A DNA stretch of 64,000 nt from Perkinsus olseni (taxonomy: Eukaryota; Perkinsozoa; Perkinsida; Perkinsidae), in assembly GCA_013115135.1 (NCBI GenBank), contig JABANP010000202.1, forward strand, positions 23,379-87,378, given 5' to 3'. Under the pieces are notes generated by a model that saw only the letters and a list, made by a program, of their open reading frames with translations, was not told where the DNA came from and searched no databases. Both the position numbers and the translations under genes were made by a program. Positions 18,604-64,000 of this stretch are shown piece by piece (position 1 is the stretch's first letter; the number at the start of each line of letters is the position of its first letter).

Positions 18604-21600
18604 TTAAGCGCTCTGAGGACAGAAGGCTGAAGTTCTACACCCGCTCAAATGGCCTGCCTTGCTCCTGGCCAAGCTGAGGCTTAAGTTAATCCTCCGAGAT
18701 TCAAAGAAGAGCCAGCCTGACCTATTCCGCATCCTGCCAGATTCAACCTCAAGATACTCCAACACGAACACTCTTATCGTAAAAGCCCGGATCAAACCAT
18801 TTGTAAGGGGGCCTCAACAAAGGCAAACCTTCCCCTCAGTCTCACCAGCTTCTCGCATGGTAGACCTTCGGGATATCACCCAGTTCAACTCTCCTCAGCG
18901 ACGGGAGGCTCGTCGAGCCTCCACCGAGATCAGCCACACCAGCAACTTTCACCCGAGAAGCAGAAGGAAAGTTCAAATCCTCGACGTCAACATCCACCGG
19001 AAAAATACGATCGATGAAGCGCGACAAGCAGCCCCGACTCTCCCTGGGGAAAACAGGAAAGTAGAGCGCGACGCAGATAATAGAATGAATCAGACAAAGC
19101 GGGACGAGCGTGTACGGGTGGCCTTCGCTGACCAGCTCCAGACTGACCTTAAAAATCGACCAACAACCCACAAAAAGAAAAAACAGCGCTCGTCTGGTCC
19201 TGGTCGGGGATCTCTCCACTGCACGAGCTCCCGTGAGAATAATGAAAATATAGAGTGGCATCCTCGTGAAGGCCAGTAGTACTTGAGGGAGGAAGCAACC
19301 CACAGCCCAAAGGGGACCCCAGATGATGATGTCAGGCGCCAACAGACACAGTGCTAGGTTTATATTTACAGTTGACAGGAGAATTACCTGATAAAACCAG
19401 TACGTTCCACGGGACCAATTCTTAGCGTTGAATCGCAAGAAGCTATCCAACGACAGGAGCTGGAAGGCCCTCCAGGGTGAGAGAATGGTCAAGTCAGACC
19501 CATTCTAGACACAAAACTCGGGAATAGGGGAATTTTCCTTCAGGCGAAATGTCCTACAATTACCCTTCCTATTGCCATTTTCTATGCCAAGAGCTGCGAG
19601 GCTCCGTAGTCTGCTTGTCGAATCGTTCACTATTCTCAAACGGGTTGGTTTACGTCTCAGAAAGAAATTCTAGATACAAAAGCATCCTTCCTTTATGAAA
19701 GCCTCACAGCAGTTTTTTCACCGACCTTTGAAATTTCGATAAAATAAAGGCCTTCGCTTTATTCGACGACAGCCTAAATTCTGGCCTTGCAACTCCTTTA
19801 CATAATTCCGCAGGACTTGGTCAGAAAATTAAAGGCAGAAGATGAAGAAATTTTGAAGTACAATCGAACTGGGGACGTCTCTCCTTAAAGCCCATTCCCT
19901 AGTACATATTTAAAAGGTATGGTTCCTCGTCTGATGCCCAACGTCTGCCGTGCCGCCCTTCCCACCTCAGATTTGACGACTCTCTCGAAGGTCGAGAGAT
20001 CACCGTTATACATAGCAGAGATTCTCCCCGTCACAAACCTTGGACAACAAAGCGAAGATGCCATTCATGCGTCATACTAACGCTTGGGAGAAATTGAGAC
20101 CCTCCAAAGTATGCCCGTAGTAATTTACTACTAGTAAATACCTCCCCTGCGCGATTCGCGCAGCGCGAAGCACGGCAAGAATGATTCTTCCCATTTCCAA
20201 CTACCCTGACAATCCTCCCTTCCACTACTGATGCTTCGGACGCTGACAGTCCAGTGCTAAGTAATGGCAGCTTTCACTACGTACTCACAAGTCCCCTTAA
20301 GAACCCAGCAGAGAAAATCTTATTGCCTTGTCCTACTCTCTATCAGCCTCGACTGTGCACTTTGTGTTTTCCATCTGGAAGGTCATGATCTGATTGACCA
20401 GAGCATCTCGATCTCGGACGTAGCGACTAGCGAACGGACAAAGGACGCCCGCCAACAGGAGGCCCTCCGGGATAGCACAGATGAGACGAGCCCTCAGACT
20501 AGCCTTGAAGGACCCCACCACAGCCTGAGGGAACCCAGTGCAGATAGCTGTCATGAAGTTACTATTATTACCACTTCTATGCTCAACAGGATGTTGCCTA
20601 CGAAGCCCACCAGAGTAAAGGCGAAGACAAATTTAATTAAGGGGAAGGGAGATGAAGACGACCTGGTCCCGATAGCTGCTTCCAACCATCCATCTGCCAT
20701 CAAAAAGGGGGTCCAATCGCTGTAACCACTCGACGCAATAAGTCGATAATTTTCCGATGTTCTCAAGAGAAATTTTATCACTTCCAAGAACTCTCGAAGA
20801 ACTCCAGATTTTCACCGAAAACCAATTTGGTCCCAACAAAATTGGCAAAAGCCGCCACTACTCCCGCACCAACCTGCAATAGCAAGTCTGGGGACGCTCC
20901 TGAATCTTCCCTTATAGCGACGTGCAGTAGAAAAATCGCGTCCCTCGGGCCCAGTCGCTTATTACTCTTTGATGCCCCTCCCAACCCTGCGCAGTTCCTC
21001 CACGACTGGACTTCCTCTCTCGGCAGGCCCTCGATCTCCATTCAACGCCCCAGCCTTGAGGCTCAGGAAGGCCGCGAGCTCATAGACGCACCAGAGGCGA
21101 TCAAAGTAACACTTCGACCACATCACTACTATCGACGAGGAGCGGCTCAAATAGGAACCGAGAGAACGGATGCCGACCTCCTTGAGAACGGGCTGAAGAG
21201 TAGGGAATGGTGTGGTATCGTAATTCAGATTGGCATCGAAAATTTAGACGCCTCCGTCTTCCCTCACCCGCCTACATCATCCTGCGGAATACAACAGTTA
21301 TCGACGAACAGTTTGTAGCTGCTTCTGGTGAGCTGAAAATTCGGTAGAAGTAAAAGCAAAATGAACACACTAGTACCTGCCATGATGGCGATGATGCCGA
21401 GTTGACAGTGGCCATCCGACTCACTTATACAAGCCAAGAAATGCGCCGTGGGGAGGCTCGTATCGGGTGCACTCTGATTACAGTAAATATAGAGTACAAC
21501 AGAGACCTCGATGATGGCAGCAGCGATGGCCGACCAGGAAGCTCGCTGGTAGTTGAAAAGGTAACACAAAGCCAGGAGCCTGCAGGGAGCTCTCTGTAAC

Positions 21601-31371: not shown

Positions 31372-31596
31372 CTCTTTGACATCCTACAGAGTATTCATGA
31401 ATAATCGTGGAGGAAATCCAAGATCAGCAAGATCCGCAAGTGACGATAAACGTTCCGAAATAGCACTAAATTTTACACCGATAAAAATCGGCTACATAAC
31501 GGGTTAACGAAACGGCAGAATTTATACAGGGGTAAAGAAATCTTACAATCTACAGCGGAGCGAAGCTCTCGCGAGGACGGGACAAAAACAGGGGTG

Positions 31597-36559: not shown

Positions 36560-36677
36560 GTTGTGCGATTCCTTGCAGCCTTTGAAGCGCCCTTGTTTAT
36601 AGTTGTACAAAAATGAGTTTCTCTTCAGTGTTCCTTTGAGTGTTGAGTTCCGATGTAAATCAATTTGGCAGTCGTTG

Positions 36678-39482: not shown

Positions 39483-40325
39483 ATGAGCTTCCTTCCGGCA
39501 TGGTTGATGGTCGTCGCTCAAGTTCTGCTGTATGGCATGGCTCAGCATGCAGGCCATTTCGTCCATCAGGAACCCTCGGGAGCGTTCATAGCTTCCTATC
39601 ATCTGCACCAGAACGGCGATCTTTCACTCAACTTTGAGGTCCCTCAAGGCGCGCGCTTCTTCGGTGTTCGCCCTCTACGCCTCAGCGGGGGTCCCCACAC
39701 TTACACCATCGAGTTCACTCCAGAATCGAGAGGAGTTGACGCGATGTATGACGGTATTCGGGAACTCTACCAAGATGCCGATATTCAACCTGGCGACTTG
39801 ACGACGCTCACCTACGACTCTGCAAGGCCTGATATCCTCTATGCTACTTTTGAGGGTCGGAAACTTCACTTTGAAAGGTTGATCTTGCCTCGTCCCGGTG
39901 AGTTTGAGAGCAGCCAGTCCGATGAATTCTCCTGGAGGTATCGCATCTATCCCGATCATCTGGTTGACATAACCCTCTCGTGTCCAAATGCTACACGACG
40001 GGGTGGCCCGGGTCCCCTCACCTCAACTTTCCGTCTTCAGAATGGCTCCTTTGAAGATTCCACAGCAGACTTGATTGAGGTTGTAGACTTGCCTCCATCT
40101 GAGCGAAATGGCAGATTAGATTTCGAGGGTCTCCGTCAGGCCTATGATGAGACCTGCGAGCATTCGTCGCGGTACGATGTCGATTTCAAGGCTCTCGTGC
40201 CCCTTAGCCCCTACATCATCCACTTGGCGGGTAGTGATGGTAGCTCCTTCCCACTCACTATGACCTCCGGTACCTTGGGCACTGTTGTATGTGAAATGGT
40301 CCCATTGATGCCGCCTTCTTCGTGA
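39483..40325 (+). CDS. secreted lineage-specific protein
   Basis: About 280 residues from ATG 39483. The signal peptide (MSFLPAWLMVVAQVLLYGMA) is followed by HFVHQEPSGAFIASYHL. Conserved blocks seen again in other copies in the window are SGGPHTYTIEFTP, ALY/MYDGIRELY, IQPGDLTTL, CPNATRRGGPGP, STFRL and NGRLDFEGLRQAY. Related full or partial copies are at 45824-48744, 55866-56299, 54152 and 62297. Relative to the 45824 copy the C-terminus is short and its last about 25 residues differ. A further ATG at 39462 could also serve. No known domain; probably exported or vacuolar. Confidence 0.75.
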   Translation: MSFLPAWLMVVAQVLLYGMAQHAGHFVHQEPSGAFIASYHLHQNGDLSLNFEVPQGARFFGVRPLRLSGGPHTYTIEFTPESRGVDAMYDGIRELYQDADIQPGDLTTLTYDSARPDILYATFEGRKLHFERLILPRPGEFESSQSDEFSWRYRIYPDHLVDITLSCPNATRRGGPGPLTSTFRLQNGSFEDSTADLIEVVDLPPSERNGRLDFEGLRQAYDETCEHSSRYDVDFKALVPLSPYIIHLAGSDGSSFPLTMTSGTLGTVVCEMVPLMPPSS

Positions 40326-45823: not shown

Positions 45824-48744
45824 ATGCTGGGCTTCATCTCAACTTGGCTGGTAGCCAGCCAGTTGTTGCTGCTGGTGGCGGCTCAAGACCCTGGCAAGTA
45901 TGTTCATAGCGATCCTGGAGGAGAGTTCACTATCATGTTCGACCTCCAGACGGACAATCGGCTCACATTCGTGTTAACACTTCAAACTTTGAAGTATTTA
46001 ACGAGCTGCCGTTTCATGACATCAACCTGCGCCTTGGCGGAGGTCCCCAGACGTATAGCGTTTCATTCACCCCTCCTTCAAAAGGTGTCCACGCCTTGTA
46101 TGGAGGCATCCGTACGCTTTACCGCAAAGCGAAGATTCAGCCTGGTGACTTGACCACCCTAGACTACGATGAAGTGCAGAGGAACAGTTTCTCTGCATTT
46201 TTCCAAGGCAAGAAGCTCAAGTTGGTCAAGTGGTCCTTCCCGCTTGCGGGAGCATTCGAGTACAACAAGCCCGGGGCGTTCAGATGGAGGTACCATATCC
46301 AGTCTGAGAAGCTCGTGGATATCTTCCTCACCTGTGCGAATGCTACACGGCCCGGTGGTCCTGGTCCTGTCGATTCAACCTTTCGTCTCGTTGAGGAACC
46401 CCTTCAAGGCTGGCCCATCGACTGGCTCAGTGTTGAAGATGTATCTAGGGTGGCCCATCGACGGAAAAATAGAAAAATTATTTCCTTCGGGAGGAAATAT
46501 GAAATTTGAAGGAAAAATGAAGGAAAAATATGGAAAAATATGGAAAAATAAAATTTTTCGCTCGGCCTGCCAGCTTTGGCAAGTCCGAACATTACCATTC
46601 GCTTCGAGTAAGCTGTCGGTAGATGTCTTGGACTCATCCATCTTGTTCACAGCTCCGATCAACCCGTTCAATTGAACCTCAACCGTTTCTGGACCGCAAC
46701 CTACCGGTCTGAAGGAAAAGCGGGCGTGCGCTAAACTACACCTTTTCCCGCGCAAATAAAATGTTTTTTCGTTCGGTTTAAACCATTTTGATAGCAATTT
46801 AGCGAGTGTCATTGGCATTAAAAAATTGTCAAACCAAATTCGTTTTGTCACCCAAATTAATATTATGAGCAAATACGATTTAACCCGTGTCATTCTATTT
46901 AAATCGATTTTGATCCAATTTCGCTATCTAAATCATTCTGCTACTACGACCCCCTTCCTGCAACTCGAACACATACTCTAAGCTCATGAAACACGGTAGA
47001 ACACTAAAGCTCGTGAATCACGAGTCGTGATTCTTGCCAACGGTAACCATACTTCAATGATTCGATCCGGTGGAAGTTCCTCCGAGAACGCTACCACGTG
47101 TGGCATCATGTCACTGGCGTGATGTTACGGCTACTACTGTATATGAATTACCTACCATGTTGCGTGTTACCCTCAGCTAATGCTGTGCCTTAGAAGTCCG
47201 ACGCCATTGACGTTGATCATATTGAGATAGAAGCTACGGGATGAAAATTTCACGATGAGGCATGCAATGAACAACGGGGATGCGCGCGACTAATTCGGCG
47301 ACTACTGTAGAGCATTCTAAATTGCATGGAAAGTGAGATTTAATATGCGTGGCACAAGTATTTTAAACTTGCTGAAGTATTTAAAGTGGATAAAAAATTA
47401 ATTTTAAAGTGGATTAAATTTTTTTAAAATGAAATTCGATTTTCCGTGCCCTTTTAAATCAAACGAAAAAACATTTTATTTGATCGGGAAAAGGTGTAGA
47501 TGCGCTTTCCAGTGTATCTCGCAGTTGGACTGTGGCAGTTGACTTTTTATGCATGTATCTTACTTACGAATCACGATTATATTGTATATAATCATATATT
47601 ATATAATAATAGGATAAAATTATATGAGATAACTGGTGCAATTATGTAATCCATATTCATTTCGTATTATAACGAATAATAATCCTATTGGCGCTGCTGC
47701 AGCATTCACAATGAACTGATGACTCACTGTATACATGCTGGTTCTACTCACGAATAAATTTCCGATCAGGAAAAGCAGTATTACCCCGGAAGGCCAGCCA
47801 ACGTCGCCTTCACACCAGCGTCAGCACGCACAAGGATACATGGAATACAGTCTGGCTGACGCTCGAAAGATTTACTAAAAGTTCCCGTAGGAGCCGTGAC
47901 TACAGGCATCGAAAACCATTTGTCCTCTTGGCGCACCATTTTTCCACGTGCTCGGTCTAATCGAGATCACCGACATAGTCGTGCCCCCCAGGCATCACAC
48001 GCCGTGATATCTGTCGTTTTTGGGGTTTTTTTCTGCTTTTTTGGTCTTTTCTGGTCTTTTGTGACTATTTTTCCCTATTTTTCCTATTTTTCCCTATTTT
48101 TCCTGTCCGAAAGAATTTCCTAAATTTCCTTCATCTTTCCGAAGGAAATCGCAGGAAAGAATCGGAAAGAAATAATTCGGGCCACCCTAGATGTATCCGC
48201 AGCGGAGCGGCACGGCAGGCTAGACTTCAAAGATTTTCGCCAGGTTTACCGGGATACTTGCCCGTACTCACAGCAGTATGACACCGACTTCAAAGCGTTC
48301 TTGCCCTTCAGTCCAAACACCGTATACGTGCAAGGTGTTGATGCTTTCTTCTACCCTCTACTCAGGGTTTCCTACCACCTACTACCGGGTACATTCTCTT
48401 ACAGAGAGGCAGATCCTCCCAGCCTCCTTACGGTGGTATATAACATTGCTGCTAATGGGGTCGTGGAGATAAGCTATTCATGCTTGAGTTCGCGGGGTTC
48501 GGTTGCTAAAGATTCCTCGCTGAGTAATGCTGTGTTTTGTCACACTGGTCAGCGTGAAGGCTACTGCCTCGAGAGCATTCCTGGGCAAGCAACGGTCTCA
48601 GATCTCCTCACCTCCATGAGAGAGGAGTGCTCAGGCCCAGTGGGAGGTGAGCAATCCGACTTCATGTGGTTCTACTATGTCTCAGAGGATACCATTCACG
48701 TCTTTTTGGAAGGGCGCACTGTAGCTTTCAGTAGAAGTCCGTGA
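45824..48744 (+). pseudogene. secreted lineage-specific protein, disrupted copy
   Basis: Start ATG 45824 with signal peptide (MLGFISTWLVASQLLLLVAA) and KYVHSDPGGEFTIMF. After RLTF at about 45975 the frame is lost; the next conserved block (FNELPFHDINLRLGGGPQTY) continues in another frame through IQPGDLTTLDYD and CANATRPGGPGP to SVEDVS. There a 1.75-kb TIR element (46445-48190) is inserted. The gene resumes exactly beyond it (AAERHGRLDFKDFRQVY) and runs to a stop at 48744. Compared with the copy at 39483 it has a longer C-terminus (TVYVQGVDAFFYPLLRVSY and beyond). Frameshift plus insertion make it a likely pseudogene, although the insertion plus target duplication is a multiple of three. Confidence 0.75.
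46445..48190. mobile_element. non-autonomous TIR transposon, 1746 bp
   Basis: Ends are perfect 12-bp inverted repeats CTAGGGTGGCCC. The flanking 6-bp duplication ATGTAT is at 46439-46444 and 48191-48196 and splits a recognisable gene, so the boundaries are exact. Inside the ends are A-rich/T-rich arms with repeated GGAAAAATA-type units. No open frame resembles a transposase, so it is probably mobilised in trans. The interior carries AT-rich DNA. Superfamily not determined. Confidence 0.9.
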
Positions 48745-51526
48745 GGGTCATCGTAGTTATCGAGGTGACGGTTCTGATGGTTCTGTAATGGCTATCAGAT
48801 AGGCCATTGCTTCCACGTTATGCAGTCTCCTCATTCGACCGAAGTCGGAGTAGTCGAGTTTTCACTATATCAACACATTTGACACCATCAACCTCCTAAA
48901 AGTCAACAATAGCACTCGAAGCCTTCGAGTCGAAGGTCATCTTTCTGACGTAGGCCGCGCTAAACCGGTGTGCTCGCCAGTGGTAAATCACCATGAAGCT
49001 TGGAACTTCTAGTTCCTCCTTAGGCTCTCATGTTCGCGTCCGCATCGCGAACAAAGACTACTTCTGCTCTTACAGTTATTTCTCGCTAGCAAAAGAGTTT
49101 TTTCCTCCCAAAAAAGGGTGGAGTTCAGCGCTTTCAATAACAGTGATCACGCACGTCTGGGCTCAGGTGCAACGGCGTTGAGTTCTTAACCATGCCCTGC
49201 CAGGACATCCCTGGACTGTTGTGCTCGACATGTGACATGTCAGCGGAAGCAGACAATCGCATTTCATTACAATGAGTAACCGCCCCGCCGATGTCATCTT
49301 CGCCTCAACCAGCGACCAGCTCTGCTCGATAACGGAGTTTTTAGTGTAGTTGCTAGTTGGGAGCGCACGGAAACGATTACCGCCACGGTGGCGGCGCCAT
49401 CCACCGGCACTCTGAGAGCGCTGCCTTTCAGAGAGCAGTGTAATCGGAGAGATTGACAATCCCTTTGGGTAGAATCACAGACATCGTCCGCTGTTCATAT
49501 ATAGTTCTTGGAAGGGTTCGACAAAATCTGCTAGGATTTCTCACTGAGAACTTGATTCATCCGTAGCGCATACCACTTGTGGACACACTCACACTAGTTG
49601 TTATGTAGCGCTCTCTGTCCGGACTCAGAACATCCGGACACGTATAATCGATGGAATTTCCATGATGGAAATGGCTCCTTTCCATGATGAAAGGGACCTT
49701 TCCAAAAGGTTGCGGAACTGCGGCTTCGCTAAAGGCGAAGTAGCTGCTTTTCGGAACTCGCGAACGCATTCTGAAAACTACTAGTTGAACAGTTCATCAG
49801 AACATTGTAGTACGATGTATAGATGCGCCCTATCGGATAGGGCCTATCCTCTTTGTCTAGGACCCTCCAGGAGAAGCTTCCTGGGGAGTAAGGGCTCACT
49901 TTAATCTCGCTCGGGGAACTGAGTTCCAGGAAAACACCGATGCTACATCAGTTGATGTTTGAGAAGATACTGTCACATCATGCTACCCCTAGTAAATAGG
50001 CTAGCTACTCCTAGGCGTTCAATAGAAGCTATGTGTTGTACTCACTGGTGTTGGGATACTCTGTGCTGCATGACAATTAAATGGCGTGCGCGTCATTCTG
50101 TGGCAACTCTGAGTTCCAATCCGCGTTCATATTGATCTGTGCGATTGTCTCTGAGCATGTTTCCTGTTTCTGTTTGTGTTAACTGCGTAGCTAGACGCTG
50201 TGTGAGTCCCTAAAAGGCTGAGTATTGAGCTAAGTAAGACTTATTGGACGCCTATTAGGCGTCGCCTAATGTGATGTACTACCGTAGTACTACTACGCTC
50301 GAGCCACTTGGTCCGTCTGGCAGGGATTCCTGTGGTGTTCTCTGGGGTATCATCTGTGTACTCTTAGATATCTATTGCTAGTCGGATAGGATCGGGTTTA
50401 CACTGTGTACATCACTCCGAGTGATAACCAATGATCCTTAGTGAGGATTCCTTACTGATGACCGAGCGGTTCACGAAGTTAGGATCAATGACCATACGAT
50501 ATGGCATTGGTTAGCAATAACCAATGACATTGGTTATTGATACAAGAACTGGTTATTGTGTTGACTAGTATCCCGCATTTCAGAGCTGTCAGAGGCTGAG
50601 CCGAGCATCGGATGAGATGCGCCGCTTTGCTTAACCCATCCCTCCCACACCGAGCACAAAAACCGGTTCGATCTGCAGACCGCGCTTCGCACTCTGATGT
50701 TTCGCCCTTCGCGGCAGAAGGATCATCGGATAGTCATCAACAGTGCGTGCGCAGTCTCCAGACCCGTTTCTTCATGGGCACGCACAGCTTGTCTCCAGAC
50801 CCACGTGTCTCGAGTGTGGAAATTTAATCCGATATGATACAGTATCATTGATACTACTCGGCCGCTAGAATCTCCGAAGGGCATCATTGACGACTGACTC
50901 CCGCGCAACCCAAAATCGCCTTCTTTGTTTGAGGTGCTCTCCATATCGAGCGATGATCACGAGAAGGACCACAATTCGAAACATCTGAAGTCCGTGAACG
51001 GTATAACAAACTGAGCTATACCGTATAAATACGAACTTCATAGTAGACACCACAGATCAGAATTGGTCGTGTCACAGGGATTGCTCGGACCCTTGTAAGC
51101 CCTCGGTCCTCCGTTGAACATAGTACATTTTTCCCGATCATCGGGACACAATGAGTCTGATATTGAATGTATGATGAATAGCGAATCCACAAGTCATGAA
51201 TCCCAATTCGATCGAATGGTAATACGAGCGTTTCATGAGATTCAGTGAACTTGACTAGTGGGTAAGCCATATGCAGCATTGGATACACTGAAGACCACTG
51301 AAAACAGCCGTTTTCCGAGTCTCCTACGACGCATAAAGTGAGGAGGCTAGCGAAGAGCATAATACGCATGTCCCAAAGGAGCAGGCAGGCACACTGTGCG
51401 GCACACAGTGTGTACTAAAAAAGAGACTATCTGAGACAGCCTAATGACGTCCACATCAAAGGGCCGCAAAGCCCACGAGCGATCATTCAAAATATAGGGC
51501 TGATCACTGATTAGCGCCGACACACT
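48745..51526. other. non-coding part of unit 1
   Basis: No convincing gene. Short open frames are repeated in unit 2 only because the DNA is duplicated. Many hairpins, for example 50247-50263 (8-bp arms, one-base loop), which is absent from unit 2. Confidence 0.5.
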
Positions 51527-52618
51527 TCATTTCAATTCGGCAATGCCGATCTTCTTCTCGCCCCAACGGAAAGAAAAATACTTCCCAAGGAGAGCCGGAT
51601 GACCTATGGTCCATTCGTTGTCGGGATCCTCGTCAACCAGCAATTTGCAGTCCTTGCTACCAGGTTTCGGCTTAGGCTCAACGTAGGCGTCGGGCGTAAT
51701 AACCAAGGGCACCTCAGATCCATCCGGCCCGTCCATAAAGAAAGTCAAGTCCGGCAGGTACTGACGATCGGTGCATGTGATAACGTACCATCCGTCTTCA
51801 CGTCTCATCTGGAATCGCTTCTTACCGCGAGTAGCGATAGAATGAGCAATGGTGACCAAGAATTTAGCGGGTACGCCGAAAATGTCGGCTCCCGTGTCCA
51901 GATAACCATCACTCAGAACAAACTCCCTGGGATAAGAGTCTCCGCCGATGTGAAATCCGGTTAACGTCACAAAACCAGTCTTCACGACCTTCACGAAACT
52001 CATGGGTGCTTTGTACAAGCTCGGGTCGTCGCCACCTAGGATGAGTTTTCCAGTTGCATGCTCAGCTGTGGTGAGGTACAGGGAGAAAACGTCAGTGCTA
52101 ATGACCTTCCTCGACACCAGCTGATCGAGTAGTGTCTTGCGCCCACTCGTGGACTTCCCGCTAGATCTGAGGCCAAGACCAGCGTGCGGATCAATCTTCG
52201 ACGACGGAGATTTATAATCCTTGGTCAGGCCGAAGTCAATGGAAACCTCCCCGACATCGAAGGCGAATTTGCCTGTGTGCTCGAATAAGGTCACTTTAGA
52301 GCCATCAGAAAAAGACACTTCATAGTTGGGACCTTGCGCGCACTGGTCGGGTTTGCAATCATAACATTTGTAGAGGATAGTCTTGCATCCACCAGGCACA
52401 AGAGTTTCATACCAAGGCCTCCAGATGAAGAAAGTTTCCCGAGCACCAGTGTCCACCACTGCCTTTACGTCTTGGCCGTCAACCTTCAGCTTGGCAGTGA
52501 GCCCGTAGCTCAGACCTTCAAGCTCTCGCGAGATATCAACCTTAACCACCGCGGCATCAACAGGGTTCGACACAGCAAGGGCTATCCAGAGGAGATGGAC
52601 GGACATCATCGGCTTCAT
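51527..52618 (-). CDS. pepsin-like (A1) aspartic protease, secreted
   Basis: About 363 residues from the ATG at 52618, which begins a signal peptide (MKPMMSVHLLWIALAVSNPV). A two-lobed A1 protease: the first catalytic motif is KAVVDTGARETFF and the second is GYLDTGADIFGVP. Supporting blocks are GKLILGGDDPSLY between the lobes and EWTIGHPALLGKYFSFRW with KKIGIAELK at the C-terminus. The first motif has Ala-Arg after DTG instead of Ser/Thr-Ser, a departure from typical pepsins. No introns. The frame continues 31 codons upstream, but those residues precede the signal peptide. Predicted secreted or vacuolar endopeptidase. Unit 2 carries a near-identical copy with an insertion. Confidence 0.85.
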   Translation of the reverse strand: MKPMMSVHLLWIALAVSNPVDAAVVKVDISRELEGLSYGLTAKLKVDGQDVKAVVDTGARETFFIWRPWYETLVPGGCKTILYKCYDCKPDQCAQGPNYEVSFSDGSKVTLFEHTGKFAFDVGEVSIDFGLTKDYKSPSSKIDPHAGLGLRSSGKSTSGRKTLLDQLVSRKVISTDVFSLYLTTAEHATGKLILGGDDPSLYKAPMSFVKVVKTGFVTLTGFHIGGDSYPREFVLSDGYLDTGADIFGVPAKFLVTIAHSIATRGKKRFQMRREDGWYVITCTDRQYLPDLTFFMDGPDGSEVPLVITPDAYVEPKPKPGSKDCKLLVDEDPDNEWTIGHPALLGKYFSFRWGEKKIGIAELK

Positions 52619-52776
52619 CAGATGGAAAGTTACTGAGGATGGAAATTCTGACCTTCGAGTTGAGGCCGAGTGCGAGGCCCTCATGGGCGTCGTCGAAGGG
52701 GAGACACGCAAGGCTCACCAATCTCATGCTGGCCCAGCATTGCTGGGTCGGAAGGTCCCAGCCGAAACCCTGAGTG

Positions 52777-52809
52777 CTCCTCGGGGCTACCTGAGGTAGC
52801 CCCGAGGAG
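52777..52809. repeat. unit-1-specific palindrome, 15-bp arms
   Basis: CTCCTCGGGGCTACC, TGA, exact reverse complement. Unit 2 has a different palindrome at the same place. Confidence 0.9.
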
Positions 52810-52952
52810 CCTACCTCTACCACTGTTGAAAAGAAGAAAAAGCTCCAGTCGGGACCCCGGGGATCCAATCCCCAGGAGATGACGGTCACCACCAATTCTA
52901 ATGCTCGAAAGGAGCGGAGCTACTCCTACCATTCTCTTAATCTATGAGTTTG

Positions 52953-52997
52953 CACTATGAGTTATAGTCTATGAGTCATAGACTATGACTCATAGTG
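52953..52997. repeat. 22-bp-arm hairpin, 1-nt loop
   Basis: The arms around G52975 pair at 21 of 22 positions (inner 11 bp ATAGTCTATGA exact). Also present in unit 2 near 61098. Confidence 0.9.
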
Positions 52998-54151
52998 TCT
53001 ACAGTAGCTACTTGCGAAAGGGCTCAACGAAAGGTAATACCGGGCTCGAGAGGAGTTCGGAAAAAAACGATCCCTTTGCGGATTTAGGATGAACGTATGT
53101 TCAATCGCATGACGGCGAACGCACGTGTTGTTCGGGACGAACGCATATACAGCGAGCTAAGGCGCACCAAGGGCAAGGCGGGCACGCAGTAGCAATGGAG
53201 GTAGTTGTCACTATATTGCAAGTTGGTTCGCGCTATGAGGCTACTAGCTTGATAGTCGGCGGGCGCCAGCAGTCGCTGTTCCAGGCGCGGCTCTGTCCAA
53301 CAGAACTGACTCGAAGGGTGAACTCTCCGGCGCCATTTCAATCGCCAAGAAGCGCTCATCCTCAGCAGTATCCCGCACTCATCAAGTTCAAAGCATCAGA
53401 CCCAGTAAGTCATTCATTCGCACAGTTTAGCGGCTCTGGCTCAGCTTGGTATGGATCTCGATGTACACTCCGGCAAATACGTTCACAGCGCTCCAGGAGG
53501 TGCGTTCAGTAACACTTCACGTGCACTATGGTGATAACTGCCTCCAGGGCAGCTGCGTACCCACATTGTTCGTGGTGCCCCTTTCCCCGCTCTGCGGTCG
53601 TCCGTCCAAGCGAATACGTGCGTTCTTTGTCATGCTATTGATCACACGTTTCCACTATAATGACATAGGGAAGACTATAGTGCACGCTAGGTAACAGCCA
53701 CTAAGCACTGAACTAGGCTGTAGCTGCTACAGTAGTCTACTAAGTAGTTTACTTAGCCTATCATCGCTGCACATCTCTTCATTGCTACTTTGTATCATTA
53801 GTCTCAGACAACCGGATGCCCTAATTTTCGGCCATGCACTCGCGTGCAGGAGTATACGTGCTACACTAAGCTTAGTTCACTTAGCTCTAGATCACAGTAT
53901 CAATTGGGTCCTCTCGAGTCCAATTTTACCTTAAACAACCACACTGTTATAGTGCACGTTCACACCGAATTCTCAACGAGATCAGGTTACGGTTGTCTGA
54001 GACTAATAATACGCAGTAGCAGTGAGGGTAATTGTGGCGATGATAGTCTGAGAACTGAGTAGTACTGAACCAGGCTGTAGCTGTGACATAGCGTGTAGTC
54101 GTCACTAAGTGTTGTCACTACAATGCAGAGTCTGCATTGCAGACGACTAAA

Positions 54152-54336
54152 CTGTTCGTTTCCAGGTCGGCTCACATTCGTATCCGAAGTATTTCGCGAA
54201 CTGCCGTTATATGGCCCCAATCTGTGCCGTAGCGGAGGTCCCCATGCGTATAGCGCCTTATTCGCCCCTCGCTCAGGCGGAGTCCGCGCCTTGTATGAAG
54301 GTGTACGCAAGCTTTACCACAACGCTAAAGTTTAGT
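54152..54336 (+). pseudogene. secreted-protein family fragment, unit 1
   Basis: Encodes RLTFVSEVFRELPLYG, SGGPHAYSALFAP and GVRALYEGVRKLY, matching the middle of the family at 39483. A stop follows after NAKV, and the next conserved block is degraded. It lacks a signal peptide and C-terminus, so it is a relic. Confidence 0.75.
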
Positions 54337-55606
54337 CTGGGGACTTGGACACTCTAGCACACGATTTAGTGGAGAAAGACACAGTTCTCTGCATTTTTCC
54401 GAGGGAAAAACATCCAGTTCGTCAGGCGGTCCTTCCTGTTTGCGGGGGCATTCGTGTATAACAGTCGCAGGCGTGAACAGTGCCAGGCGTGAGCTGAGCC
54501 CACTGGGCTCTGCTGGCGAGTAGCACGATTAACATTTGACCATCAACGGGAGACATAGTGGCGACTCAACGTTTCGCTCTGGAAACTGGTAGAGCGCATT
54601 CTTGGCGAGTCCCAATCATAGCAGGAACCGGTAGGTAATTTCCGGTCTGATGTCTTCCGCGCAGTACTCAGAATAAAACCCAGTCGCTGGAGACCAGTTA
54701 AAACGTGCATGTCGTGTAGAATGGATACTAATCAATGTCTCTGGGAGCGCTTGCTTCTTCGTTGACGACCTATCAGGAAGATCCCCTGGGTGGAGAAGGC
54801 TTGCTTCAATCCCATTCCGGGAGCTAGGTTCAAGATAGGCTATCTTGGATAGGAAACAATTGTGGCGACCCAATTCCTCGCCTACTAGAATCCTCCAAAT
54901 TTCCGAGTCGGAAGACGCTATTGATGATTGACTGCAGTAAAACTCAGCACCTAAGTTATCGACTCGTATGATTGGAGTATTCTCCATATCGAGTGACGAA
55001 AATCACCAGAATCAAAAACACCTGAAGTCCGTGAAGGTTTACAATGTGTGATTCACAGCGTGTAGCGGACCGAGCATCTGAGCACTGTACAAATACGAAC
55101 TTCGTAGCGAGAAACGCCGATGAGGATTGGTCGCGTCACAGAAACCACTTGTGTTCTTGCGGGTCCTCGATCCTCCATTTTACATAAGTGACTATTCCCC
55201 AATAAGTCTGATAGCGAATATACGAAGAATAGCGGATCAAGTAGTAATGACGCGAGTCCCTGTTGAATAGGGCCTATTTGATCAAATGACAATATGAGCG
55301 GGTAATCGAAATCAGTGCACTGGATGATTGAAATCAGTACACTTGAATAGTGGGCCAACCATGATAAGGGGAACGTTGCAATACCCACTATGATCGGCTC
55401 TATTCTGGTCTCATACGACCCATACACTGAGTTGGCTAGCAAAGAGCGAAATACGCATGCCCCTCGGGAGCAGGCAGGCACACTGAGTGCCGAAAAAGAC
55501 AGACCGTCTTAGACAGTCTAATGACCGACCATCATCATGGAGCCACAAAACCCATGAGTGATCATCCAGAATACAGGGCTGATCCCTGAATTGGCGCTGG
55601 CACACT

Positions 55607-55855
55607 TCATTTCAAATCGGCGATACCGATCTTCTTTTCACTCCAACGGAAAGAGAAATACTTCCCAAGGAGAGCCGGATGACCTATGGTCCATTCGTTA
55701 TCGGGGTCCTCGTCAAATAACAAAGCACAGTCCTCACCACCAACAAGTTTAGGCTTAGGCTCAACGTAGGCATCGGGCGTAATAACCAAGGGAACCTCAG
55801 ATCCGTCCGTCCCCTTCAGGAAGAAGGTCAAGTCAGGCAGATACCGACGATCGGT
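55607..55855 (-). pseudogene. truncated aspartic protease C-terminus, unit 1
   Basis: Covers YLPDLTFFLKGTDGSEV, EPKPKLVGGEDCALLF and EWTIGHPALLGKYFSFRW, then ADLK and a stop. It is cut at 55855, the duplication joint, and lacks both catalytic DTG motifs. It differs from the full copies at several sites, so a second protease gene existed before the duplication. Confidence 0.8.
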
Positions 55856-55865
55856 GTTTGGTCAC

Positions 55866-56299
55866 GTCCAAACACCGTATACGTGCAAGGTGTTGATGCT
55901 TTCTTCTACCCTCTACTCAGAGTTTCCTACCACCTACTGCCAGGTACATTCTCTTACAGAGAGGCAGATCCTCCCAGCCTCCTTACGGTGGTATATAACA
56001 TTGCTGCTAATGGGGTCGTGGAGATAAGCTATTCATGCTTGAGTTCGCGGGGTTCGGTTGCTAAAGATTCCTCGCTGAGTAATGCTGTGTTTTGTCACAC
56101 TGGTCAGCGTGAAGGCTACTGCCTCGAGAGCATTCCTGGGCAAGCAACGGTCTCAGATCTCCTCACCTCCATGAGAGAGGAGTGCTCAGGTCCAGTGGGA
56201 GGTGAGCAAGCCGACTTGATGTGGTTCTACTATGTCTCACAGGATACCATTCACGTCCCTTTGGAAGGGTGCACTATAGCTTTCAGTAGAAGTCCGTGA
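55866..56299 (+). pseudogene. secreted-protein C-terminal fragment, unit 2
   Basis: Starts mid-gene at TVYVQGVDAFFYPLLRVSY and runs to the same stop as at 48744, with a few substitutions (for example the final FLEGRTVAF reads PLEGCTIAF). No start, signal peptide or N-terminal half. Confidence 0.8.
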
Positions 56300-59091
56300 G
56301 GGTCATCGTAGTTATCGAGGTGACGGTTCTGATGGTTCTGTAATGGCTATCAGATAGGCCATTGCTTCCACGTTATGCAGTCTCCTCATTCGACCGAAGT
56401 CGGAGTAGTCGAGTTTTCACTATATCAACACATTTGACACCATCAACCTCCTAAAAGTCAACAATAGCACTCGAAGCCTTCGAGTCGAAGGTCATCTTTC
56501 TGGCGTAGGCCGCGCTAAACCGCTGTGCTCGCCAGTGGTAAATCACCATGAAGCTTGGAACTTCTAGTTCCTCCTTAGGCTCTCATGTTCGCGTCCGCAT
56601 CGCGAACAAAGACTACTTCTGCTATTAGAGTTTTTTTTCTCGCTAGCAAAAGAGTTTTTTCCTCCCAAAAAAGGGTGGAGTTCAGCGCTTTCAATAACAG
56701 TGATCACGCACGTCTGGGCTCAGGTGCAACGGCGTTGAGTTCTTAACCATGCCCTGCCAGGGCATCCCTGGACTGTTGTGCTCGACATGTGACATGTCAG
56801 CGGAAGCAGACAATCGCATTTCATTACAATGAGTAACCGCCCCGCCGATGTCATCTTCGCCTCAACCAGCGACCAGTTCTGCTCGATAACGGAGTTTTTA
56901 GTGTAGTTGCTAGTTGGGAGCGCACGGGAACGATTACCGCCACGGTGGCGGCGCCATCCACCGGCACTCTGAGAGCGCTGCCTTTCAGAGAGCAGTGTAA
57001 TCGGAGAGATTGACACCCTTTGGGTAGAATCACAGACATCGTCCGCTGTTCATATATAGTTCTTGGAAGGGCTCGACAAAATCTGCTAGGATTTCTCACT
57101 GAGAACTTGATTCATCCGTAGCGCATACCACTTGTGGACACACTCACACTAGTTGTTATGTAGCGCTCTCTGTCCGGACTCAGAACATCCGGACACGTAT
57201 AATCGATGGAATTTCCATGATGGAAATGGCTCCTTTCCATGATGAAAGGGACCTTTCCAAAAGGTTGCGGAACTGCGGCTTCGCTAAAGGCGAAGTAGCT
57301 GCTTTTCGGAACTCGCGAACGCATTCTGAAAACTACTAGTTGAACAGTTCATCAGAACATTGTAGTACGATGTATAGATGCGCCCTATCGGATAGGGCCT
57401 ATCCTCTTTGTCTAGGACCCTCCAGGAGAAGCTTCCTGGGGAGTAAGGGCTCACTTTAATCTCGCTCGGGGAACTGAGTTCCAGGAAAACACCGATGCTA
57501 CATCAGTTGATGTTTGAGAAGATACTGTCACATCATGCTACTCCTAGTAAATAGGCTAGCTACTCCTAGGCGTTCAATAAAAGCTATGTGTTGTACTCAC
57601 TGGTGTTGGGATGCTCTGTGCTGCATGACAATTAAATGGCGTGCGCGTCATTCTGTGGCAACTCTGAGTTCCACTCCGCGTTTATATTGATCTGTGTGAT
57701 TGTCTCTGAGCATGTTCCTGTTTCTGTATGTGTTAACTGCGTAGCTAGACGCTGAGTCGGACTCAGTGAGTCCCTAAAAGGCTGAGTATTAAGCTAGGTA
57801 AGACTTATTGGACGCCTAAAGTGATGTACTACCGTAGTACTACTACGCTCGAGCCACTTGGTCCGTCTGGCAGGGATTCCTGTGGTGTTCTCTGGGGTAT
57901 CATCTGTGTACTCTTAGATATCTATTGCTAGTCGGATAGGATCGGGTTTACACTGTGTACATCACTCCGAGTGATAACCAATGATCCTTAGTGAGGATTC
58001 CTTACTGATGACCGAGCGGTTCACGAAGTTAGGATCAATGACCATACGACATGGCATTGGTTAGCAATAACCAATGACATTGGTTATTGATACAAGAACT
58101 GGTTATTGTGTTGACTAGTATCCCGCATTTCAGAGCTGTCAGAGGCTGAGCCGAGCATCGGATGAGATGCGCCGCTTTGCTTAACCCATCCCTCCCACAC
58201 CGAGCTCAAGAACCGGTTCGATCTGCAGACCGCGCTTCGCACTTTGATGTTTCGCCCTTCGCGGCAGAAGGATCATCGGATAGTCATCAACAGTGCGTGC
58301 GCAGTCTCCAGACCCGTTTCTTCATGGGCACGCACAGCTTGTCTCCAGACCCACGTGTCTCGAGTGTGGAAATTTAATCCGATATGATACAGTATCATTG
58401 ATACTACTCGGCCGCTAGAATCTCCGAAGGGCATCATTGACGACTGACTCCCGCGCAACCCAAAATCGCCTTCTTTGTTTGAGGTGCTCTCCATATCGAG
58501 CGATGATCACGAGAAGGACCACAATTCGAAACATCTGAAGTCCGTGAACGGTATAACAAACTGAGCTATACCGTATAAATACGAACTTCATAGTAGACAT
58601 CACAGATCAGAATTGGTCGTGTCACAGGGATTGCTCGGACCCTTGTAAGCCCTCGGTCCTCCGTTGAACATAGTACATTTTTCCCGATCATCGGGACACA
58701 ATGAGTCTGATATTGAATGTATGATGAATAGCGAATCCACAAGTCATGAATCCCAATTCGATCGAATGGTAATACGAGCGTTTCATGAGATTCAGTGAAC
58801 TTGACTAGTGGGTAAAGCCATATGCAGCATTGGATACACTGAAGACCACTGAAAACAGCCGTTTTCCGAGTCTCCTACGACGCATAAAGTGAGGAGGCTA
58901 GCGAAGAGCATAATACGCATGTCCCAAAGGAGCAGGCAGGCACACTGTGCGGCACACAGTGTGTACTAAAAAAGAGACTATCTGAGACAGCCTAATGACG
59001 TCCACATCAAAGGGCCGCAAAGCCCACGACTCGTGGGCCACGAGCGATCATTCAAAATATAGGGCTGATCACTGATTAGCGCCGACACACT
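56300..59091. other. non-coding part of unit 2
   Basis: Duplicate of 48745-51526. Unit-specific palindromes occur at 57752-57766 (CTGAGTC, G, reverse complement) and 59022-59038 (GCCCACGA, C, reverse complement). Confidence 0.6.
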
Positions 59092-60771
59092 TCATTTCAA
59101 TTCGGCAATGCCAATCTTCTTCTCGCCCCAACGGAAAGAAAAATACTTCCCGAGGAGAGCCGGATGACCTATGGTCCATTCGTTGTCGGGATCCTCGTCA
59201 ACCAGCAATTTGCAGTCCTTGCTACCAGGTTTCGGCTTAGGCTCAACGTAGGCGTCGGGCGTAATAACCAAGGGCACCTCAGATCCATCCGGCCCGTCCA
59301 TAAAGAAAGTCAAGTCCGGCAGGTACTGACGATCGGTGCATGCGAAGACGTACCATCCGTCTTCACGTCTCATCTGGAATCGCTTCTTACCGCGAGTAGC
59401 GATAGAATGAGCAATGGTGACCAAGAACTTTGCGGGTACGGCGAAAATGTCGGCTCCCGTGTCCAGATAAGCATCACTCAGAACAAACTCCCTGGGATAA
59501 GCGCCTCCACCGATGTTGAAGCCGGTTAACTGCACAAAACCAGGGTGAACCACTGTCCGAATTTGGACATTGTCCATCTGCAATTTTGCCGCAATTTGCG
59601 GCAAGAAAAATAATTGGCGAAAAATAGGAAAAATGCGAAAAATGCCAAAAAATGCCTAAAATTTGAGCCTCGAGCGTACACAAGTGGACCGGGTACCTAC
59701 GAGTCATCACCTTCGCCCGTTTGCGTCATTGACAGTTATATCAACGATGGTAACAGCGCTGTACACTTGTTTACCTCGCGGCAGGCCTTGCGATGCGATT
59801 CGATGCAAATTGCCATCGATCAGACGGGCGCGCGCTAAGTTCATGCGCTGCTCGACGAGTACGATGCGGCACATATGGTTCGGAAGTTGTTTATGCGGGC
59901 CACGCGTGCTCGTGATGCCCCACGATAAGCGTAGCGTTGCCTGCTCCTTCCGTGATCACCTGCATCGCCCTAGTAGCACTCGGATCGCCTCAGTCGCCTC
60001 GACAGAGGCGACAGGAAAATTTTTCGTATTTTACGGCTATTTTGCGCATTTTGCGAGTATTTTGCACAATTTTCTTGCGGAAAATTATTTTTTTATTTTG
60101 CAGGACATTGGTGCACCCTGCACAAAACCAGTCTTCACGACCTTCACGAAACTCATGGGGCCCTTGTACAAGCTCGGGTCGTCGCCACCCAGGATGAGTT
60201 TTCCAGTTGCATGCTCAGCTGTGGTGAGGTACAGGGAGAAAACGTCAGTGCTAATGACCTTCCTCGACACCAGCTGATCGAGTAGTGTTTTGCGCCCACT
60301 CGTGGACTTCCCGCTAGATCTGAGGCCAAGACCAGCGTGCGGATCAATCTTCGACGACGGAGATTTATAATCCTTGGTCAGGCCGAAGTCAATGGAAACC
60401 TCCCCGACATCGGAGGCGAATTTGCCTGTGTGCTCGAATAAGGTCACTTTAGAGCCATCAGCAAAAGACACTTCATAGTTGGGACCTTGCGCGCACTGGT
60501 CGGGTTTGCAATCATAACATTTGTAGAGGATAGTCTCGCATCCACCAGGCACAAGAGTTTCATACCAAGGCCTCCAGATGAAGAAAGTTTCCCGAGCACC
60601 AGTGTCCACCACTGCCTTTACGTCTTGGCCGTCAACCTTCAGCTTGGCAGTGAGCCCGTAGCTCAGACCTTCAAACTCTCGCGAGATATCAACCTTAACC
60701 ACCGCGGCATCAACAGGGTTCGACACAGCAAGGGCTATCCAGAGGAGATGGACGGACATCATCGGCTTCAT
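59092..60771 (-). CDS. pepsin-like aspartic protease copy with TIR-element insertion
   Basis: The same gene as at 51527-52618, start at 60771. The N-terminal lobe (KAVVDTGARETFF) runs to KVVKTGFVQ, where a 574-bp element lies between 14-bp duplications. The C-terminal lobe resumes with LTGFNIGGGAYPREFV, AYLDTGADIFAVP and the intact C-terminus. Unspliced, the frame stops inside the element. A GT in the upstream duplication (60123/60122) and the AG closing the downstream duplication (59530) delimit 594 nt; removal would restore the frame with loss of two residues. Whether it is a gene with a new intron or a pseudogene cannot be decided here. Several substitutions relative to the other copy cluster near the insertion. 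Confidence 0.7.
59544..60117. mobile_element. 574-bp non-autonomous TIR element
   Basis: Termini GGTGAACCACTGTCC and, inverted, GGTGCACCAATGTCC (13 of 15 match). The 14-bp flanking duplication CTGCACAAAACCAG is at 59530-59543 and 60118-60131. Absent from the homologous site in unit 1, so it inserted after the duplication. Subterminal A/T-rich arms resemble those of the element at 46445. No transposase. Confidence 0.9.
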
Positions 60772-62296
60772 CAGATGAAAAGTTACTGAGGATGGAAATT
60801 CTGACCTTCGAGTTGAGGCCGAGTGCGAGGCCCTCATGGGCGTCGTCGAAGGGGAGACACGCAAGGCTCACCAATCTCATGCTGGCCCAGCATTGCTGGG
60901 TCGGAAGGTCCCAGCCGAAACCCTGAGTGCTCCTCGGGGCTACCTCTAGTAGAGGTCCTCTACCACTGTTGAAAAGAAGAAAAAGCTCCAGTCGGGACCC
61001 CGGGGATCCAATCCCCAGGAGATGACGGTCACCACCAATTCTAATGCTCGAAAGGAGCGGAGCTACTCCTACCATTCTCTTAATCTATGAGTTTGCACTA
61101 TGAGTTATAGTCTATGAGTCATAGACTATGACTCATAGTGTCTACAGTAGCTACTTGCGAAAGGGCCCAACGAAAGGTAATACCGGGCTCGAGAGGAGTT
61201 CGGAAAAAAAAACGATCCCTTTGCGGATTTAGGATGAACGTATGTTCAATCGCATGACGGCGAACGCACGTGTTGGTCGGGACGAACGCATATACAGCGA
61301 GCTAAGGCGCACCAAGGGCAAGGCGGGCACGCAGTAGCAATGGAGGTAGTTGTCACTATATTGCAAGTTGGTTCGCGCTATGAGGCTACTAGCTTGATAG
61401 TCGGCGGGCGCCAGCAGTCGCTGTTCCAGGCGCGGCTCTGTCCAACAGAACTGACTCGAAGGGTGAACTCTCCGGCGCCATTTCAATCGCCAAGAAGCGC
61501 TCATCCTCAGCAGTATCCCGCACTCATCAAGTTCAAAGCATCAGACCCAGTAAGTCATTCATTCGCACAGTTTAGCGGCTCTGGCTCAGCTTGGTATGGA
61601 TCTCGATGTACACTCCGGCAAATACGTTCACAGCGCTCCAGGAGGTGCGTTCAGTAACACTTCACGTGCACTATGGTGATAACTGCCTCCAGGGCAGCTG
61701 CGTACCCACATTGTTCGTGGTGCCCCTTTCCCCGCTCTGCGGTCGTCCGTCCAAGCGAATACGCGCGTTCTTTGTCATGCTATTGATCACACGTTTCCAC
61801 TATAATGACATAGGGAAGACTATAGTGCACGCTAGGTAACAGCCACTAAGCACTGAACTAGGCTGTAGCTGCTACAGTAGTCTACTAAGTAGTCTACTTA
61901 GCCTATCATCGCTGCACATCTCTTCATTGCTACTTTGTATCATTAGTCTCAGACAACCGGATGCCCTAATTTTCGGCCATGCACTCGCGTGCAGGAGTAT
62001 ACGTGCTACACTAAGCTTAGTTCACTTAGCTCTAGATCACAGTATCAATTGGGTCCTCTCGAGTCCAATTTTACCTTAAACAACCACACTGTTATAGTGC
62101 ACGTTCACACCGAATTCTCAACGAGATCAGGTTACGGTTGTCTGAGACTAATAATACGCAGTAGCAGTGAGGGTAATTGTGGCGATGATAGTCTGAGAAC
62201 TGAGTAGTACTGAACCAGGCTGTAGCTGTGACATAGCGTGTAGTCGTCACTAAGTGTTGTCACTACAATGCAGAGTCTGCATTGCAGACGACTAAA

Positions 62297-62481
62297 CTGT
62301 TCGTTTCCAGGTCGGCTCACATTCGTATCCGAAGTATTTCGCGAACTGCCGTTATATGGCCCCAATCTGTGCCGTAGCGGAGGTCCCCATGCGTATAGCG
62401 CCTTATTCGCCCCTCGCTCAGGCGGAGTCCGCGCCTTGTATGAAGGTGTACGCAAGCTTTACCACAACGCTAAAGTTTAGT
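62297..62481 (+). pseudogene. secreted-protein family fragment, unit 2
   Basis: Duplicate of the relic at 54152-54336, with the same blocks and the same stop. Confidence 0.75.
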
Positions 62482-63751
62482 CTGGGGACTTGGACACTCT
62501 AGCATACGATTAAGTGGAGAAAGACACAGTTCTCTGCATTTTTCCGAGGGAAAAACATCCAGTTCGTCAGGCGGTCCTTCCTGTTTGCGGGGGCATTCGT
62601 GTTTAACAGTCGCAGGCGTGAACAGTGCCAGGCGTGAGCTGAGCCCACTGGGCTCTGCTGGCGAGTAGCACGATTAACATTTGACCATCAACGGGAGACA
62701 TAGTGGCGACTCAACGTTTCGCTCTGGAAACTGGTAGAGCGCATTCTTGGCGAGTCCCAATCATAGCAGGAACCGGTAGGTAATTTCCGGTCTGATGTCT
62801 TCCGCGCAGTACTCAGATTAAAACCCAGTCGCTGGAGACCAGTATAAACGTGCATGTCGTGTAGAATGGATACTAATCAATGTCTCTGGGAGCGCTTGCT
62901 TCTTCGTTGACGACCTATCAGGAAGATCCCCTGGGTGGAGAAGGCTTGCTTCAATCCCATTCCGGGAGCTAGGTTCAAGATAGGCTATCTTGGATAGGAA
63001 ACAATTGTGGCGACCCAATTCCTCGCCTACTAGAATCCTCCAAATTTCCGAGTCGGAAGACGCTATTGATGATTGACTGCAGTAAAACTCAGCACCTAAG
63101 TTATCGACTCGTATGATTGGAGTATTCTCCATATCGAGTGACGAAAATCACCAGAATCAAAAACACCTGAAGTCCGTGAAGGTTTACAATGTGTGATTCA
63201 CAGCGTGTAGCGGACCGAGCATCTGAGCACTGTACAAATACGAACTTCGTAGCGAGAATCACCGATGAGGATTGGTCGCGTCACAGAAACCACTTGTGTT
63301 CTTGCGGGTCCTCGATCCTCCATTTTACATAAGTGACTATTCCCCAATAAGTCTGATAGCGAATATACGAAGAATAGCGGATCAAGTAGTAATGACGCGA
63401 GCCCCTGTTGAATAGGGCCTATTTGATCAAATGACAATATGAGCGGGTAATCGAAATCAGTGCACTGGATGATTGAAATCAGTACACTTGAATAGTGGGC
63501 CAACCATGATAAGGGGAACGTTGCAATACCCACTATGATCGGCTCTATTCTGGTCTCATACGACCCATACACTGAGTTGGCTAGCAAAGAGCGAAATACG
63601 CATGCCCCTCGGGAGCAGGCAGGCACACTGAGTGCCGAAAAAGACAGACCGTTTTAGACAGTCTAATGACCGACCATCATCATGGAGCCACAAAACCCAT
63701 GAGTGATCATCCAGAATATAGGGCTGATCCCTGAATTGGCGCTGGCACACT

Positions 63752-64000
63752 TCATTTCAAATCGGCGATACCGATCTTCTTCCCATCCCAACGGAAAGAT
63801 AAATACTTCCCAAGGAGAGCCGGATGACCTATGGTCCATTCGTTATCGGGGTCCTCGTCAAATAACAAAGCACAGTCCTCGCCACCAACAAGTTTGGGCT
63901 TAGGCTCAACGTAGGCATCGGGCGTAATAACCAAGGGAACCTCAGATCCGTCCGCCCCCTTCAGGAAGAAGGTCAAGTCAGGCAGATACCGACGATCGGT
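63752..64000 (-). pseudogene. truncated aspartic protease C-terminus, unit 2
   Basis: Duplicate of 55607-55855, with small changes near the end (YLSFRWDGKKIGIADLK). It reaches the window edge, so truncation here rests on the unit-1 parallel. Confidence 0.7.

Follow-up and report, generated by a model that had tools for sequence, protein, structure and literature searches.

Short palindromic insertions in the Perkinsus olseni genome as probable excision footprints of hAT transposons

Introduction

How do two copies of a stretch of DNA that are otherwise nearly identical come to differ by short, perfect palindromes? The question is raised by a tandem duplication in Perkinsus olseni, an alveolate that parasitises molluscs. 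The duplication lies within 64,000 nucleotides of contig JABANP010000202.1 (assembly GCA_013115135.1, positions 23,379 to 87,378 of the forward strand). We call this whole stretch the window and use its own numbering throughout. The initial annotation of the window reported that the two units of the duplication differ by insertions that create hairpins, and took these to be recent inverted duplications made by one distinct fold-back or template-switch process. From the analysis given here we conclude that the palindromic insertions are very probably footprints left by the excision of transposons of the hAT superfamily, with repair likely keeping a whole inverted copy of the 8-bp target. No title dealing with such scars in Perkinsus was found in a literature search that was mostly at title level and covered few subscription journals.

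Results

The window was taken from an assembly of 61.5 Mb in 968 contigs, and its two tandem units (Table 1) are 97-99% identical by BLAST. The full alignment of the units contains 93 mismatch columns, of which 7 are misalignment inside the palindrome site at 52.8 kb, and ten gap events: five of 1-2 bp, four at palindromic sites (net lengths 10, 14, 14 and 10 bp) and one of 588 bp, which consists of a 580-bp hAT element and one 8-bp copy of its target. All five palindromes that had been said to distinguish the units are present in this alignment, beside approximately 86 substitutions, although this is a small sample. Every gap of at least 10 bp is either palindromic or the transposon itself; by simple count, however, six of the ten gap events are non-palindromic. 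Its positions were correct for the 8-bp arms at 50247-50263 and 59022-59038 and for the 7-bp arms at 57752-57766 and 60942-60956, but the longest palindrome spans 52776-52810 with 17-bp arms rather than 52777-52809 with 15-bp arms, and the loops, described as 1-3 nt, are 1 nt in all five.

Four of the five palindromes fit a single rule exactly. On an 8-mer X, with bases x1..x8, the site reads x1..x7, then the reverse complement of x1..x8, then x2..x8, which amounts to a 14-bp insertion on X and 22 nt in total. The fifth is the long hairpin at 52776-52810, in which x1-x7 (52786-52792) are followed by the complement of x8 (52793), the inverted x7-x1 (52794-52800), 10 nt of inverted left flank (52801-52810) and then x2-x8 (52811-52817). 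The left hairpin in this case takes in 10 nt of flank past the duplication, after which the sequence picks up at exactly x2.

We counted this structure in a survey set of 235,370 bp, comprising the window and 20 stretches of at most 10 kb each from contigs 1, 50, 100 etc. of the same genome. With a unit length (n) of 8 the exact structure occurs 72 times, on 63 distinct X, as some scars are common to duplicated stretches. It does not occur at n = 7 or at any n from 9 to 14, and at n = 4, 5 and 6 it occurs 72, 6 and 3 times against 47, 3 and 0 times in the control. The exact n = 8 structure is absent from the Markov control, and 50 kb of Escherichia coli likewise contain no n = 8 structure. Sites with 0, 1, 2 and 3 mismatches number 72, 68, 59 and 94 against 0, 0, 1.7 and 25 in the Markov control, so that up to two mismatches the sum is 199 against 1.7 expected.

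The composition of these sites agrees with that of hAT footprints. A unit confined to 8 nt corresponds to the remains of an 8-bp target duplication, and in all 72 exact cases the palindrome is centred on the complement of the base that adjoined the element, this base being lost from the flank copy. The hAT target consensus is nTnnnnAn, and in the 63 distinct X a T at position 2 or an A at position 7 fills 56 of 126 positions (p = 6.4e-7, in one of 16 base-position tests). It is because of the fixed 8-mer, the outer copies without their insertion-facing base and the complement of that base at the palindrome centres that we read the insertions as products of hAT excision.

The signature can also be seen in hairpin counts that take no account of X. 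In the window, where ten first-order Markov sequences served as control, 1-nt-loop hairpins number 79 against 4.1 expected with 7-bp arms (approximately 20-fold) and 24 against 1.0 with 8-bp arms (24-fold). Hairpins with loops of 0 or 2 nt occur about as often as expected, and those with 3-nt loops and an arm of 7 are raised about threefold (8 against 2.7). Across the survey set, 1-nt-loop hairpins with arms of 7 to 11 bp number 176, 52, 27, 7 and 5 against 9, 7, 0, 2 and 0 in the control, leaving a thin tail of longer arms. A search for RNA genes gave no Rfam match at the gathering threshold in the window, nor in loci L054, L069 and L060.

Several scars can be compared with an empty copy of the same site. 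Between the units, the footprints that start at 50248 and 59023 each add 14 bp. Further pairs were found by chance elsewhere in the genome: L051 against L063 and L064, where X is GGCGGTAC and the empty copies are 1-2 bases off X, and L079 against L071, L081 and L082, where X is TAAGTGAT and is exact in L081. The difference is again 14 bp, and a re-check showed the exact scar structure in L051 and L079 and none in their empty partners.

A resident element, L052, joins element and scar at one end. Its left end reads CCCGACC, then AGGTCGGG, which is the reverse complement of CCCGACCT, and then a shortened element end, while its right flank retains CCCGACCT. As we read this sequence, the left flank hairpin would have opened to the full 8 nt and been rejoined to the element, with the join in a shared GGG, and L052 would be a one-ended flank-hairpin product still attached to its element.

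Other products with inverted bases are scarce by comparison. Where both flank copies are retained together with inverted bases, the product was the full 8-nt form 72 times in the survey set against 11 times for a 3-nt insert and 0-2 times for each other fully templated insert of 4-29 nt. The 3-nt inserts (11 against 0 in the control) are a possible minor excision product. Inserts of 4, 5, 6 and 7 nt occur 2, 1, 2 and 0 times against a control of 0, and those of 1 nt (38 against 33) and 2 nt (17 against 9) are hard to separate from background.

Outside the window the 20 pieces, 171,370 bp in all, contain 36 exact scars and 102 at up to two mismatches. The scars are a real feature and turn up again in 17 of these 20 pieces, which hold at least one scar at up to two mismatches, but the spread is uneven: the range is from 0 to 31 per piece and L010 alone contributes 12 of the 36 exact scars and 31 of the 102. 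Exact or slightly decayed scars occur approximately once per 1-2 kb of sampled sequence, and if these arbitrarily placed pieces are typical, a rough extrapolation puts the genome at about 13,000 scars that are exact and 37,000 that are recognisable. The near-equal classes with 0, 1 and 2 mismatches (72, 68 and 59) suggest, without dating them, a steady and long-running production with slow decay and not a one-off activity.

The genome also contains resident hAT elements. The 580-bp element of unit 2 ends in CAGGGTG, and its 8-bp target-site duplication (TSD), CAGGG-type inverted ends and repeats in the genome identify it as a miniature inverted-repeat transposable element of hAT type. The aspartyl protease gene of unit 2 (59092-60867) is split by this element, and the unit 1 copy (51527-52711) is a single open frame. 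The family to which it belongs has approximately 13 genome copies (25 end matches). Among the 13 copies read, 12 fetched and the one in the window, ten have an exact 8-bp TSD, L048 matches at 7 of 8 positions, L052 is the hybrid described above and L058 has no match. L058, which lacks matching target duplications, and L059 are longer copies that resemble each other in an additional internal segment. The second family came to light in L010. With up to one mismatch allowed, its ends match 58 times and a reversed-pattern control 4 times; the TSD is exact in three of the five copies read, and the copies L073/L074 and L075/L076 have no matching TSD. A scan for resident elements that allowed one TSD mismatch returned three candidates, with 1, 2, 0 and 1 at the offset controls, and candidate L009 was set aside as it looks like chance given those controls.

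A hAT transposase is predicted in the genome from its domains. The hAT dimerisation domain PF05699 gives 21 matches over the cut-off among 35 candidates scored and none in 14 control genomes. One match lies within an open frame of 668 amino acids, of which 595 were read and also carry DUF4371; the match of this frame to the sequence of the solved Hermes transposase is not significant (E ~0.7).

Empty sites of the resident elements fall inside 1-nt-loop palindromes with arms of at least 7 in 3 of 11 cases against 0.9% of random sites (P = 1.2e-4), or in 3 of 14 when three more sites are added (P = 2.7e-4). Resident elements thus seem to favour palindromes. In unit 1 four overlapping footprint-like units follow each other at 7-nt spacing (Table 1), and the same four-unit chain lies in unit 2 at 61097-61139; it makes a 45-bp near-perfect palindrome. 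The chain may have come from repeated insertion into earlier scars or from several rounds in one repair event. Because scars chain in this way and resident empty sites favour palindromes, old scars may themselves be targets for new insertions.

Table 1. Positions in the window of the tandem units, the resident element and the footprints
Feature	Position	Strand	Basis and remarks
Tandem unit 1	48311..55855	.	Self-BLAST and full alignment; 25 footprint-like 22-mers (up to 2 mismatches)
Tandem unit 2	55866..64000	.	Self-BLAST and full alignment; runs to the window end and is cut there; 26 footprint-like 22-mers (up to 2 mismatches)
Exact footprint, unit 1 only, X = ACGCCTAA	50248..50269	.	Unit 2 has X once (empty site)
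Exact footprint, unit 2 only, X = CCCACGAG	59023..59044	.	Unit 1 has X once (empty site)
Exact footprint, unit 2, X = CTGAGTCC	57752..57773	.	Unit 1 reads CTGTGTGAGTCC, eroded or a different scar
Exact footprint, unit 2, X = ACCTCTAC	60942..60963	.	Unit alignment and footprint scan
Long-hairpin footprint, unit 1, X = GCTACCTC	52786..52817	.	Unit alignment and hairpin search, positions re-checked; whole hairpin 52776-52810
Chain of overlapping footprint-like units, 7-nt spacing	52954..52996	.	Starts 52954, 52961 (2 mismatches), 52968, 52975 (exact)
Non-autonomous hAT element, 580 bp, ends CAGGGTGAACCACTGTCC / CAGGGTGCACCAATGTCC	59541..60120	.	Interrupts the unit 2 aspartyl protease gene; unit 1 has the empty site
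Left 8-bp target duplication CACAAAAC	59533..59540	.	Flank reading
Right 8-bp target duplication CACAAAAC	60121..60128	.	Flank reading
Exact footprint outside the units	20117..20138	.	One of 16 such in the window
Other 15 exact footprints outside the units	Starts 65, 253, 1830, 1880, 20148, 23008, 23437, 24164, 26313, 26762, 27185, 30191, 31244, 45444, 47010	.	Footprint scan

The window as a whole holds 36 exact footprints and 97 footprint-like 22-mers at up to two mismatches, the latter at approximately one per 0.4 kb outside two empty gaps. These gaps, 2797-20116 (~17 kb) and 31266-40698 (~9 kb), contain no footprint-like 22-mer at up to two mismatches. The first may be gene-dense, and Pfam gave no match for ten frames in or near the footprint-free stretches. 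The second contains adenosine deaminase genes. An open adenosine deaminase frame at 35306-36559 has 88% identity to a Perkinsus marinus protein, matches a partial Perkinsus olseni protein at 98% identity along 81% of its length, and is followed by an apparent broken relative (region 35306-38576). Within this region the segments 36176-36330 and 38241-38395 share 97% identity, possibly as a result of gene conversion. Elsewhere in the genome, the resident element in L054 sits within a repeat of long tandem arrays, at 177277-182655 in C601 (spacing 581 bp, with weaker copies between). The same repeat is found in C380, C650, C713 and C825, and has no Rfam match.

Discussion

A sequence of steps that would give the scars can be set out from the chemistry of hAT excision. 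An element would insert and duplicate the 8 bp of X on both sides, a duplication that is seen for the resident copies and presumed for each scar. On excision, the transposase would cut each flank one base in from the element and the cut ends would close as hairpins, which is established hAT chemistry and the step whose signature is seen in the sequence. The left hairpin would carry x1..x7 and turn via the complement of x8, and the right hairpin would be its mirror image, turning via the complement of x1. If each hairpin were then opened at or beyond the 8-bp duplication, 3' overhangs would result, the left reading as the reverse complement of X and the right as X. These could anneal over 8 nt and, once the gaps were filled, give x1..x7, the reverse complement of X and x2..x8, 14 bp longer than the empty site. 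In a variant, an opened left end joined directly to the right end would leave a longer palindrome followed by x2..x8, as at 52776-52817. The hairpins would have to open far from their tips, and annealing over the six shared direct bases would restore the site invisibly.

The process first proposed for these insertions thus keeps its recency, its unity and its fold-back DNA, but its template switch is not supported. The fold-back step is better read as a flank hairpin made by a transposase, because the 8-nt unit is fixed, each outer copy lacks one base of X and the target preference is hAT-like.

Three other explanations were weighed. One is a dedicated or domesticated hAT-type excision system, in which programmed removal leaves one main scar, as in the DNA elimination of ciliates. 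Such a system would account for the dominance of a single inverted product (72 full 8-nt forms, 11 of 3 nt and 0-2 for the others of 4-29 nt) and for scars that greatly outnumber the resident copies found. The scars and elements vary between paralogues, however, in the manner of ordinary hopping, and we consider programmed excision very improbable.

Template switching during replication, in which the polymerase passes to the other strand and back, does make inverted copies, and the product here has an inverted and a direct copy, as events with four switch points can give (PMC8794818). It was the explanation considered first and was dropped once the unit length proved fixed at 8. Switch points and unit lengths should vary in such events, yet only n = 8 is found among n = 7 to 14, and template switching offers no evident reason for 72 occurrences at 8 nt against 0 at 7 and 9-14. 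It also leaves unexplained the T2/A7 preference in X and the remnant at the end of the resident transposon L052. As read here, L052 and 52776-52817 are both outcomes open to the hairpin model but not required by template switching. We consider replication error a highly unlikely source of the scars. We give similarly little credence to abortive hAT cutting at targets that never held a fully inserted element, which would suit the small number of resident elements relative to scars and the lack of any element-and-scar pair, but known hAT hairpins arise on the flanks of an inserted element and the hybrid end of L052 has its hairpin product beside the element.

Several observations nevertheless weigh against excision of hAT elements as set out above. 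Hairpin opening and annealing are steps that we infer. No pair of paralogues was found with an element in one and a footprint in the other at the same 8-mer: searches with the joined flanks of ten first-family sites (206 matches; L058, without a matching TSD, was included) and of three second-family sites (37 matches; the query included a 35-nt piece of a fourth flank) gave 10 and 4 aligned paralogous stretches respectively, and all 14 were empty. The resident copies are few beside the scars, and their TSDs have T2 or A7 at 7 of 24 positions (12 TSDs) or 9 of 28 (14 TSDs), near background. Because of this last result, these two resident families may not be the makers of most scars, and other families may have made them instead.

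At the 57752 site the palindrome is present in unit 2, but unit 1 reads CTGTGTGAGTCC against an expected CTGAGTCC and is no clean empty site, so that a gain in unit 2 would look no different from a partial loss, or from another scar, in unit 1. Among the 1-nt-loop hairpins of the survey set, those with arms of 5 and 6 are also in excess (286 against 173 and 94 against 39), for which the full product alone is insufficient; these excess hairpins may be decayed scars or another, shorter product. Finally, plain joining without inverted bases, which would leave a 6-bp tandem repeat, was counted 158 times against 61 in the Markov control. This excess is weakened by 6-mer direct repeats, which are raised at most spacings, and two-copy tandem repeats with a unit of 6 (65, beside 152 for a unit of 5 and 18 for a unit of 7) are at most slightly raised. 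Plain joining may or may not contribute a second product that lacks inverted bases.

The scars can be compared with several described systems. Footprints of the hAT elements Ac/Ds in Candida albicans, yeast and Arabidopsis share additions that form palindromes around the complement of the base adjoining the transposon, the loss of that base and the microhomology at the joints (PMC5873905, PMC1978519), and for Arabidopsis hairpins are described together with microhomology joining (PMC1978519). Favoured products are found there too, making up 35 and 18 of 128 in C. albicans and 11 of 17 in one Arabidopsis set, but the range of products is wide and most additions are short, with 28 types among the 128 C. 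albicans revertants and a longest addition of 3 nt; in yeast, arms of up to 20 nt are given (PMC5873905, PMC1978519). In Perkinsus, by contrast, one full 8-nt inverted product dominates the products with inverted bases and occurs in most of the sampled pieces. The hAT element TcBuster in human cells is similar in its 8-bp target duplications and in small complementary insertions ascribed to flank hairpins and end joining, but its insertions are small and variable and its consensus is nnnTAnnn (PMC3499496), unlike the T2/A7 of the Perkinsus scars.

Short template-switch mutations (PMC8794818) resemble the scars in forming perfect hairpins in one step beside the original sequence, and differ from them in that the Perkinsus unit is fixed at 8 and that a target duplication and a transposase are involved. 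The introner elements of Amoebophrya come from another alveolate genome, one rich in inverted and direct repeats with a transposon-like spread. These elements are introns with inverted repeats of 8-20 nt and direct repeats of 3-5 nt (PMC7789003), whereas the Perkinsus scars are 22 nt long with no element inside. The chemistry underlying the scars is already known; what is unusual is that a single complete inverted product dominates and that the scars are as dense as approximately one per 1-2 kb.

Conclusions

A wider proposal is put forward tentatively, at somewhat less than even confidence: that in Perkinsus the breaks of hAT excision are led into one main annealing repair, which keeps the whole inverted 8-mer and has left tens of thousands of decaying 14-bp scars of like structure, far more than there are resident elements, and that these form a genome-wide clock of hopping and one of the main sources of larger indels. 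The scars account for a large class of small indels and hairpins, which one might otherwise mistake for RNA structures or replication errors. As a scar can be recognised from one genome, with no need of an empty copy to set beside it, past excisions can be counted and roughly dated. The scars would also serve as a natural read-out of how DNA hairpins are opened and joined in an alveolate, where other hosts yield mixed products at this step, and, if our reading of them as hAT excision footprints is true, they constitute a large fossil record of transposon hopping.

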